Assembly: GCF_023195915.1 (NCBI RefSeq)
Contig: NZ_JALPRP010000001.1
Coordinates: forward strand, 682,001-746,000
Length of the DNA stretch: 64,000 nt
Origin: Methanoculleus sp. 7T
GTDB lineage: Archaea; Halobacteriota; Methanomicrobia; Methanomicrobiales; Methanoculleaceae
Direction of reading: 5' to 3'
Position 1 is the first letter of the stretch, and every line of letters begins with the position of its first letter. This document shows, piece after piece, positions 15,034-19,091 of the stretch. The notes beneath the pieces were generated by a model. That model saw nothing but the letters and a program-made list of their open reading frames with translations, made no database searches and was not told the origin of the DNA. Position numbers and translations under genes: made by a program.

Positions 15034-15246
15034 CTTGTTATCAAATGTCCCGAGAATTTGCGGCAAAGGGATATTTGCTGCAGGCGTGACACCAATTCCC
15101 CAAACTGATAGATTGGGGGGATGAACGAAGGGCTGCGGTCACCCCGTTGCAGACGCGCGGCCGAGCGAGCTCCTTTTGCAGGGCTCCCGCCGTGGTGCGG
15201 CCGCCCCGGCACAAGACCCACCCGGGTGCGCGCTCCGGCAGTTGCA

Positions 15247-15651
15247 TCATCCGAAGTACAGGTCGCCGTCTTCGTTGATATAGACCTCAACGTCCTCGCG
15301 GACCTGCCTGCCCCTGAACCGGTCGGGATTCGCGTCCCTGAGCCGATTGATGAGCGAGATGGTGTCGTACTTGACCTTCACTCCCATCTTCTCGGCTTCG
15401 GTGTAGATGATCTCGGGAGCCTTGAGCAGGTCGAGGCCGCCCGGGAGCGTGCAGAGGTGTGCGGCGTCGAGCGTGTAGAGAAACTCAAGCGTGTCACGTG
15501 CACGTGCAATGTTCTCGAGAGCGGCCTTCTCGATAGTACAGACGTTTGCCTTAGACGTATGGATAATCTCTGCGATCTGTTGCTGCGTCAACCCTTTCTT
15601 TCGGTAGCGCAGTACTTCCTTCTGGCGATCGGTAAGCAGACCTTGTTTCAT
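15247..15651 (-). CDS. tfx: Tfx-family transcriptional regulator
   Basis: 134 residues from MKQGLLTDRQKEVLRYRKKG. An N-terminal LuxR/sigma70-like helix-turn-helix (LTQQQIAEIIHTSKANVCTI) is followed by an acidic C-terminal domain ending NEDGDLYFG, the layout of archaeal Tfx. In Methanothermobacter, Tfx binds just downstream of the promoter of the fmdECB (molybdenum formylmethanofuran dehydrogenase) operon. Here it is divergent from mtd with 142 bp between, so it may regulate C1-pathway genes (inference). Seven extra codons upstream are open, but the ATG at 15651 matches the family N-terminus and lies about 25-30 bp from a TATA-like TTTAAATTTAA near 15675-15690, suggesting a short leader. Confidence 0.88.
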   Translation of the reverse strand: MKQGLLTDRQKEVLRYRKKGLTQQQIAEIIHTSKANVCTIEKAALENIARARDTLEFLYTLDAAHLCTLPGGLDLLKAPEIIYTEAEKMGVKVKYDTISLINRLRDANPDRFRGRQVREDVEVYINEDGDLYFG

Positions 15652-15737
15652 CAAATATATATATGGACACATTAAATTTAAACACTTTTCCTTAACAGCC
15701 CCTCTCGAACCGGGTTTTTTCGGGCTATTTCAAAACG

Positions 15738-15773
15738 TTTATATGAGAACTTGGCAATACTATCGTGTTCTCA
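15738..15773 (+). promoter_or_regulatory. mtd promoter with inverted repeat over the start site
   Basis: Box A TTTATAT at 15739-15745 is followed at once by an inverted repeat, TGAGAAC at 15744-15750 and GTTCTCA at 15767-15773. The repeat spans the predicted transcription start. A ribosome-binding site GAGGTG lies at 15782-15787. This is a good candidate operator, possibly for the divergent Tfx protein. Confidence 0.55.
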
Positions 15774-15793
15774 AATTTTGAGAGGTGTTTAAA

Positions 15794-16636
15794 GTGGTAG
15801 TTAAAGTAGGAATTGCGAAACTGGGAAATATCGCCAGTGGTGTAATGGGCGAACTCCTTCTCGATGAGCGTGCCGACCGTGAGGATATCATCACCTTCAT
15901 GGCGACCTCCGGGACGAAGCTCCAGCCCGAGGATATCGACCGCGTGGTCAGCAATATGAAAGCATGGGGCCCCGACTTCTGTATCGTCGTCTCCCCGAAC
16001 GGCATCCTTCCCGGACCCACTAAGGCCCGTGAGGACCTCGCAGCGGCCGGAATCCCCTGCATCGTCATCACCGACGACGTCACCACCAAGAAGGAGCAGT
16101 TCGAGGCGCTCAAGGCGAGCAACTTCGGCTACATCATCATGAAGGCCGACGCCATGATCGGCGCCCGCCGTGAGTTCCTCGACCCCATCGAGATGGCGGA
16201 CTACAACGGGAACCTCGTCAAGGTGCTCGCCATCACCGGCGCGTTCCGGAAGATGCAGACGGAACTCGACAAGGTGATCGACCAGGTGAAGGCCGGCAAG
16301 AAGGGCGCGGACCTCGCGCTCCCGAAGGTCGTCATGACTTCCGACAAGGCGGTCGACGGCGAGTTCACCAACCCCTACGCGCTCGCGAAGGCCCGTGCAG
16401 CCTACGAGATCGCACAGGCGGTTGCAGGCGTCAACGTTAAGGGCTGCTTCATGACGAAGGAGTGGGAGAAGTACATCCCGATCGTCGCGAGCGCCCACGA
16501 GATGATGCGCCAGGCCATGATCCTCTGCGAGGAGGCACGCGACCTCGAGAAGGGCATGGACGCGGTCATCCGGAAGCCGCACAAGAAGACCGGCGAGATC
16601 GTCTCCAAGACGAAGCTCATCAGCAAGCCCGAGTAA
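15794..16636 (+). CDS. mtd: F420-dependent methylenetetrahydromethanopterin dehydrogenase
   Basis: Oxidoreductase of the methanogenic C1 pathway: methenyl-H4MPT plus F420H2 to methylene-H4MPT. 280 residues starting (GTG) [16 protein letters not shown], with conserved stretches [19 protein letters not shown] and [16 protein letters not shown]; length is normal for Mtd. The GTG start is preferred over a GTG three codons upstream because GAGGTG then sits 6 nt away. It is a single-gene unit between its own promoter and a pyrimidine-rich T-run; mer lies 1.3 kb downstream on the other strand. Confidence 0.97.
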
Positions 16637-16816: not shown

Positions 16817-17752
16817 TTAACGACTGCCTAAACGCCTGAAAAGAGGTCCTAAGTCTTCAGGGAGCGTCAGGATGACCGGCTCAAGGTGCAGCCGCTCCAT
16901 GAACGCCGAGTCGCACATGGAGAGGCTGTTTGGGTTCAGCCGCGAGATCAGCGAGCAGAATACTCGGTGACCTCGCCCCGCCGTCCCCGGGGCGTCGAAG
17001 AAGATCGAGGCGTTGAAAGCATGCGTCCCGAGGCTCCGGTAGAAGTCGATGATGCGAAGGAGCCCGTCGACCAGCGGCTCGATGTAGGGTCCGAGTTCGG
17101 CAAGCGTCGATATCGGCAGGATCCCCCGCACCTCCCGTTCACCGAGGGGGACCGGGCTTGCCGACCAGAAGATCTCGTCCTCAAAGAGGAACCGGCCGGA
17201 ACAGCGCTCGCGCTCCGCCAGGTCGTCCCAGTAGAGGCGGCCGTGGTCGGCAAGATACCGGCGGCCTCCGGCGATATAGAGATCGGCAAGGCGGGTCGGC
17301 TCGGGGTCGGCGATGCCCTGGAGGTGCGGATGGACGATGCTCGCACCGGCCGAGGGAAGATAGTTCCAGTTGATGCTCGCATACCCTGAAGACCGAACAA
17401 GGGCTTCTGCGGTGCCGGATATGGCGTCGGCGAGGCACCGCTTATCGAACCGATCGGGCGCATGGTCGGGCGTGATCACTGTGACCACGTGATGCTCGGC
17501 GAACGGATAGAGATTGGGGAACGTCATGCTCTCTCCGCACCGGAGCCGACTGCCGTCCGCGAACGTCGGAGTGGAGGTAGTTATGGCCCCAGGGCAGAAC
17601 GGGCAGCCTTTGCGGGAGGCAGGCATGGCAGGAGCGGTATTGATCTGCCGTTCGACCCGGACGGGACTTATTCGGCACCGAATGCCGGTGAGGGATTCGC
17701 GGCGGTACTGGAGGATCCCTTGTTCCGTCCGGATCTCATGGATGGTGAACAT
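16817..17752 (-). CDS. Galactose-1-phosphate uridylyltransferase-like protein (HIT superfamily)
   Basis: 311 residues. An N-terminal CPFC motif (zinc-type, about residue 50) and the active-site HPHLQ near residue 143 (HxHxQ) mark the GalT/nucleotidyltransferase branch of the HIT superfamily. It probably transfers a nucleotide to or from a sugar phosphate; the substrate cannot be read from sequence. A TATA-like TTTTATACGG at about 17784-17793 gives a short leader. It is located between mtd and mer but has its own promoter and no visible metabolic link to them. Confidence 0.8.
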   Translation of the reverse strand: MFTIHEIRTEQGILQYRRESLTGIRCRISPVRVERQINTAPAMPASRKGCPFCPGAITTSTPTFADGSRLRCGESMTFPNLYPFAEHHVVTVITPDHAPDRFDKRCLADAISGTAEALVRSSGYASINWNYLPSAGASIVHPHLQGIADPEPTRLADLYIAGGRRYLADHGRLYWDDLAERERCSGRFLFEDEIFWSASPVPLGEREVRGILPISTLAELGPYIEPLVDGLLRIIDFYRSLGTHAFNASIFFDAPGTAGRGHRVFCSLISRLNPNSLSMCDSAFMERLHLEPVILTLPEDLGPLFRRLGSR

Positions 17753-18908: not shown

Positions 18909-18946
18909 GGCTAATACACCTCACTTGAGTAGTTACGTGCAGAGAG

Positions 18947-18957
18947 ATATATATATT
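18947..18957 (-). promoter_or_regulatory. TATA box of mer
   Basis: An alternating AT tract (AATATATATAT on the minus strand) lies about 40-50 bp upstream of the mer TTG start, giving a leader of about 15-20 nt that holds the GAGGTG site. Confidence 0.6.
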
Positions 18958-19091
18958 ATCATTTTGTGTTCACTAAACGACACGTACCGCACAGGTAGTG
19001 CAAAACGGAGCGACGTAACGTGTTCTCCGGGGCATCGAGGAGATCTCCCCGCTTACCCTGTAGAGAACCTCCGCACGATGTGATCAAACCG

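Follow-up and report, generated by a model that had tools for sequence, protein, structure and literature searches.

A constrained inverted repeat at the start of mtd in Methanoculleus is doubtful as a Tfx operator and may join a promoter-proximal stretch to a predicted leader hairpin

We analyzed a window of 64,000 nucleotides from Methanoculleus sp. 7T (the whole stretch of DNA, positions 682,001 to 746,000 of contig NZ_JALPRP010000001.1), in which a regulator gene, tfx, and mtd, the product of which carries out a central step of hydrogenotrophic methanogenesis, diverge from an intergenic region of 142 bp (15652-15793). The start codons of both genes are our choice, and the limits of the intergenic region follow from them. 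The gene calls of a first-pass annotation of this DNA hold according to Pfam and NCBIfam profile matches. In profile searches, the tfx product matched PF14601 (2.3e-31), TIGR00721 (2.7e-34; 118 bits compared to a cut-off of 60.25) and NF003057 (2.5e-72). Both PF14601 (TFX_C) and PF04545, a sigma70-r4-like HTH in the N-terminal part, scored above their cut-offs, which places the protein in the Tfx family. Mtd is up to 98% identical to the nearest named loci, which belong to Methanoculleus. The tfx mRNA is probably leaderless from ATG 15651, and transcription of mtd would start at about 15765-15768, as estimated from the TATA centre plus 24-27 nt. The features of the locus are as follows.

15247-15651, minus strand: tfx, Tfx-family HTH regulator of 134 aa, chosen start ATG 15651
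15676-15696, minus strand: promoter block of tfx, GTTAAGGAAAAGTGTTTAAAT, a BRE/TATA together with a GTTAA element; candidate site of autoregulation
15727-15744, plus strand: mtd BRE and TATA block ATTTCAAAACGTTTATAT, highly conserved in 79 aligned loci
15744-15750, plus strand: left arm TGAGAAC of the palindrome, exact; identity 0.907 in the Methanoculleus group, mostly absent outside it
15757-15769, plus strand: ATANTA (-10 region) and TGTT (start-site region), widely conserved, mostly within the palindrome spacer
15767-15773, plus strand: right arm GTTCTCA of the palindrome, exact; putative first transcribed bases
15768-15784, plus strand: predicted 5'-terminal leader hairpin UUCUCAA-AUU-UUGAGAG, overlapping the Shine-Dalgarno
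15782-15787, plus strand: Shine-Dalgarno GAGGTG of mtd, nearly invariant in 79 loci
15794-16636, plus strand: mtd (PF01993 3e-110, NF002162 4.2e-130), chosen start GTG 15794

Two further observations concern the flanks of this pair. The gap of about 860 bp between tfx and a ribosomal protein operon, which holds no named gene, contains an inverted repeat CCCCAA-N9-TTGGGG at 15098-15118. Between mtd and mer lies an ORF of 311 aa (16817-17752, minus strand), for which Pfam and NCBIfam searches at 0.001 gave no match; its sequence includes HPHLQ, which we take to resemble HIT/GalT-type motifs.

In order to place the locus among its relatives, we compared the window with 80 named loci, and the upstream sequence sufficed in 79 of the 81. 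The divergent orientation of tfx and mtd, which had been pointed out for this window, was found at 76 of the 80 named loci, at distances of 139-787 bp. Three of the remaining four have just 19-716 nt of contig upstream of mtd, and the fourth (L087) has 3 kb upstream of mtd without tfx and an mtd promoter that appears degenerate by eye. The first-pass annotation had also cited a precedent from Methanothermobacter, which is borne out by the accessible part of PMC3087415: Tfx (MTH916) is reported to bind downstream of the fmdECB promoter. Common to both cases is a Tfx-family HTH gene beside a gene of the C1 pathway. The target in Methanothermobacter, however, is the operon of the Mo formylmethanofuran dehydrogenase, whereas the neighbour of tfx here is mtd. 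The same part of that paper names both Tfx and Mtd and draws no link between them, and among the papers listed in our literature searches, none was about Tfx control of mtd.

The intergenic region contains TGAGAAC-N16-GTTCTCA at 15744-15773, an inverted repeat with perfect 7-bp arms, a spacer of 16 bp and arm centres 23 bp apart. This palindrome is real as described before: its first base doubles as the final T in the TATA box (TTTATAT, 15738-15744), and it would span the start site of mtd. When the 142-bp region was shuffled 2000 times by dinucleotides, 634 shuffles had an inverted repeat with 7-bp arms and a spacer of 0-30, and 20 had one with a spacer of exactly 16. A second inverted repeat of the region, TCTCAAA-1-TTTGAGA, shares the right arm with the first. 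Since shuffles yield such repeats often, the palindrome by itself is unremarkable, and its sequence proves little. In the genus, 25 of 35 genomes carry it exactly and 7 more with a single mismatch, which makes 32 at a threshold of one mismatch; these were assigned to mtd by the spacer sequence. This genus-wide retention indicates that the palindrome is constrained in Methanoculleus beyond chance. The three genomes without it at this threshold are G006 and G027, both of which lack a complete mtd, and G020. Additionally, G025 has the palindrome on a different contig from the remainder of mtd, and no palindrome match is listed for an additional mtd copy of G022.

A genome search for further copies, as the first-pass annotation had proposed, found the exact palindrome only at mtd in the 2.6-Mb genome, and five further places with two mismatches compared to three for the reversed control pattern; with a single exact copy, there is no sign of a Tfx regulon. 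Across the Methanoculleus genomes, the palindrome lies solely at mtd, except for single-mismatch places in G012, G024 and G031, and the reversed control was found at one place, in G008. Conservation in relatives that carry tfx, a further expectation, held within the genus and failed beyond it. The exact palindrome occurs in 16 of 79 loci, namely in 15 of 21 from Methanoculleus and in 1 of 58 others (L059), where unnamed MAG rows were put in the genus by Mtd identity and the genome list in an assignment of our own. The right arm GTTCTCA is present in 32 of 79 loci; those of Methanocalculus, Methanocorpusculum and Methanomicrobium have the right arm and lack the left one.

These data bear on the proposal that a Tfx dimer binds TGAGAAC-N16-GTTCTCA and thereby blocks or modulates the mtd promoter. 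The divergent gene pair, the conservation of both arms in the genus and the binding of Tfx downstream of the fmdECB promoter are consistent with this proposal, and so is the regulator EnfR (TON_1525) of Thermococcus onnurineus. According to the accessible part of PMC10570040, the region protected by EnfR runs from -44 to +3, covers a TATA-like box and holds a 36-bp pseudopalindrome with an 18-bp minimum, a site similar to the mtd palindrome in position and length. The Tfx of the window matches PDB entries 1nr3 (2.6e-13) and 8hno (7.9e-16) in sequence, the latter being EnfR as judged from its sequence and molecule name. However, EnfR is a dimer with HTHs 35.8 Å apart, about one helical turn (same part of PMC10570040), and the 23 bp between the centres of the palindrome arms do not have this one-turn spacing, a standard taken from one family member only. 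The 18-bp minimal site given there, AATCTTTTTGTTTACATT, is also unlike the mtd palindrome. The EnfR contacts R35, R43 and R44 read K, K and A in the Tfx studied here. In the mtd-linked Tfx proteins, the equivalent positions are K-K-S (48) or K-K-A (25) in all 73 that were aligned, while they vary among 34 other Tfx proteins, one of which has K-K-S. With these positions constant, the operator of mtd-linked Tfx should be shared among the loci, yet the exact palindrome is almost absent outside the genus. Furthermore, alignment A2 (34 loci selected by the string GAGAGG, 23 distinct rows) showed no compensation of arm substitutions: the DNA dyad formed by the two arms had 77.6% of cells paired and no two-sided change, which is not above shuffles. 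We therefore regard the palindrome as quite improbable as a Tfx operator. Regulation of mtd by Tfx as such is plausible from gene order, and we consider the chances even; the palindrome is no evidence for it.

The two arms differ in the way they are conserved. Among 20 distinct sequences of the Methanoculleus group, identity was 0.947 in the BRE/TATA, 0.972 in the right arm and 0.964 on the Shine-Dalgarno side, and the left arm (0.907) lay somewhat above the spacer (0.845) and clearly above the third codon positions of mtd (0.763). The elevated left arm would fit a genus-specific operator for a regulator other than Tfx. Given the uncompensated arm changes and the lack of a second exact copy in the genome, such an operator is equally improbable. 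Across the 79 loci, the columns of high information are 15727-15744 (ATTTCAAAAYGTTTATAT), 15757-15762 (ATANTA, with N free), 15766-15769 (TGTT) and 15782-15787 (GAGGTG), while the left-arm columns 15745-15749 are weak across the order (0.27-0.70 bits).

We used the promoter of mer, which does not adjoin tfx, as a control for this conservation. In 54 common loci, 20 columns of the mer promoter reached at least 1.5 bits compared to 21 for mtd, 31 compared to 37 reached at least 1 bit, and the means were 0.89 and 1.02. Because mer nearly equals mtd, conservation of this degree does not alone imply a regulator, and we rejected it as proof of one. The mer promoter itself lies at 18909-18990 (minus strand) and has a AAAATGATAATNTATTTAA-like core; in 16 of 54 mer leaders, CTCA-N0..2-TGAGG abuts the Shine-Dalgarno. 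The mer control favours a reading in which conservation around the mtd start reflects the core promoter and leader of a strongly expressed gene, with Tfx unrelated to mtd. This reading is possible, and we lean against it: it leaves unexplained the adjacency of tfx and mtd at nearly all named loci and a second linkage of the two genes in another family (G257, see below), and ATANTA is present in 38 of 54 mtd leaders compared to 9 of 54 mer leaders.

We also searched the genome of the window with the mtd promoter elements. A profile built on 42 sequences, one length class of the 79 loci, found mtd at E 2.6e-15 and one other place at E 0.22 over 17 positions. The BRE and TATA block occurs once exactly and at two places with two mismatches (reversed control 0 and 1), and the core motif GGYRATANTATCGTGTT with at most three mismatches occurs at 32 places, two of them with two mismatches, compared to 9 for the reversed control. 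Outside the order, the block TTTCA[AC]AA was found in none of 16 readable mtd promoters (of 20 fetched, the other 4 yielded no start).

The right arm, on the other hand, has a partner in the predicted leader. In all 32 loci with the right arm, TCTCA is followed by a downstream TGAGA, and none of the 47 other loci has the pair; the 32 loci are mutually related and do not represent as many independent cases. In the window, 15768-15774 would pair with 15778-15784. The 7-bp stem is complete in one register in 31 of the 32 loci, and in L043 it pairs in a register shifted by 2, as read by eye from the sequence; it is broken in L044 and L051. The bases GA that precede GAGGTG are retained together with the right arm, and they would be dispensable for the Shine-Dalgarno, given what we take to be the archaeal 16S 3' end.

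On A2, the leader stem had 96.9% of cells paired, a measure that the kinship of the sequences inflates, and 1 of 500 shuffles was as good in paired cells and covariation score. One pair changes from AU to UA in 4 of the 23 distinct rows, perhaps in one or two events. By the count of pairs with two-sided changes, 337 of 500 shuffles were as good, and the measures of pair count and pair type were not above shuffles. Since A2 was selected by a string inside the 3' arm, which left little room for variation in several of the seven pairs (four never vary), the evidence from this alignment is moderate. The predicted folds are of modest strength. That of the window leader has -4.9 kcal/mol (z -1.86 for 35 nt, -0.77 for 66 nt), and z values in relatives were -1.27 (L057), -0.63 (L096), -1.01 (L112) and -2.97 (L078), where part of the longer fold in L078 may fall upstream of the start. 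The hairpin pattern occurs at mtd and at one other place in the genome; reversed controls gave 2 and 3 places, which argues that it is not a general leader. A search of 15200-16000 against Rfam at E 1 gave no match.

Leader hairpins that overlap a Shine-Dalgarno form a general class. As in these, upstream bases of the mtd leader would pair with the Shine-Dalgarno region; the mtd stem differs in being very short and in its position at the putative 5' end of the transcript. The leader and Shine-Dalgarno explain the right arm better than Tfx does.

Overall, the arms of the palindrome seem to be kept for different reasons, and it is rather likely that the palindrome represents two unrelated constraints that mirror each other by coincidence. 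The left arm would be the sequence that immediately follows the TATA box, under constraint in the Methanoculleus group alone and embedded in a conserved core promoter. The right arm would correspond to the initiator and the first bases of the mtd transcript and, in the mRNA, may pair with bases overlapping the Shine-Dalgarno to give a stem-loop of 6-7 bp at the very 5' end. Such a stem, if formed in the cell, would most likely tune translation or protect the 5' end of the mRNA. This depends on the estimated start site, as a transcript that begins after 15772 would be too short to form the stem. The palindrome is thus probably the wrong target for a footprint.

A different candidate for Tfx binding lies at the tfx promoter. 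The block GTTAASGAAAAGTGTTTAAAT (as GTTWA-N9-TTTA) was found in 74 of 77 tfx upstream regions and, with at most three mismatches, at a single place in the genome of the window (15676-15696). In two other lineages, tfx is accompanied by perfect inverted repeats of the form TTTAAC-N5/6-GTTAAA: it is preceded by TTTAACAAAAGTGTTAAA at L184, from another family, and TTTAACGTTTGGTTAAA is present at L241. In 34 context loci, sites of the form TTAAC-N5-7-GTTAA, with one mismatch allowed, have a 7.2-fold higher density near tfx (4 in 6,120 bp) than elsewhere (15 in 165,247 bp). These observations point to autoregulation, in which Tfx would bind its own promoter block, perhaps along with the BRE/TATA block of mtd, and would alter mtd as well; we rate this route as a fair possibility that falls somewhat short of even chances. 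The form TTAAC-N5-7-GTTAA, however, occurs in just 4 of the 34 loci, and the block includes a BRE and a TATA box and may be conserved without Tfx. The mtd BRE/TATA had looked promising as a duplicate of the tfx block, since the best mtd-promoter match had a median rank of 3 among about 13,000 positions and was in the top ten in 53 of 77 loci. We dropped this idea as the mer promoter ranks alike: for mtd and mer, the median rank by the tfx-block matrix was 7 and 8, with 33 and 30 of 53 loci in the top ten. The best mtd-promoter match to this matrix did not exceed 15.8 bits in 77 loci. The mtd promoter thus matches the matrix no better than the mer promoter, and one lineage (L063, L066, L076, L100 and L107) keeps the tfx block and not the mtd block. 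At these five loci, mtd has a AAAACGCAAC..TTTTTAT-like sequence instead of the ATTTCAAAA block.

Additional information comes from 36 other tfx contexts that were fetched. Eleven of them, informative by eye and not a random sample, were given to Pfam, and nine of the 11 had Mo/W-type transport or molybdoenzyme neighbours. L184 has a MOT1 molybdate transporter together with FmdE and molybdopterin proteins. At L185, L187, L227, L237, L240, L241 and L242, the neighbours are solute-binding or ABC transporter proteins of Mo/W kind, with the substrate tentatively assigned, and L227 and L232 have FdhA-like molybdopterin oxidoreductases. A tRNA-synthetase-like protein was found at L183. At L238 (2423-3847; G257, another family), tfx immediately follows mtd in the same orientation, the second tfx-mtd linkage. 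Among the remaining 25 contexts, a Mo/W-type neighbour was recognised by eye in some, for example L228. In six genomes outside the order, those with coordinates listed for both genes, tfx and mtd appeared by eye to lie on separate contigs or at a large distance from each other (G107, G142, G158, G168, G197 and G249). Three genomes of family f6 carry second Tfx paralogs, two of which (L227, and L228 by eye) have Tup-like ABC genes and an FdhA-like gene in divergent orientation as neighbours, and the third lies (L232) immediately before an FdhA-like gene.

Taken together, it is conceivable, albeit unlikely, that in Methanomicrobiales a Tfx-family regulator, a kind of protein often encoded next to Mo/W transport and Mo/W-enzyme genes in other archaea, was fixed opposite mtd, with mtd and Tfx tied to Mo/W supply via the widespread tfx-promoter block, and that TGAGAAC/GTTCTCA is a later accessory site in the Methanoculleus group. 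With the tfx-mtd pair kept, the Tfx contacts constant and the conserved blocks named, Tfx control could be tested directly at little cost, and the other tfx contexts, with their Mo/W-type transporters, fmd-like genes and molybdopterin oxidoreductases, suggest which signal to try.
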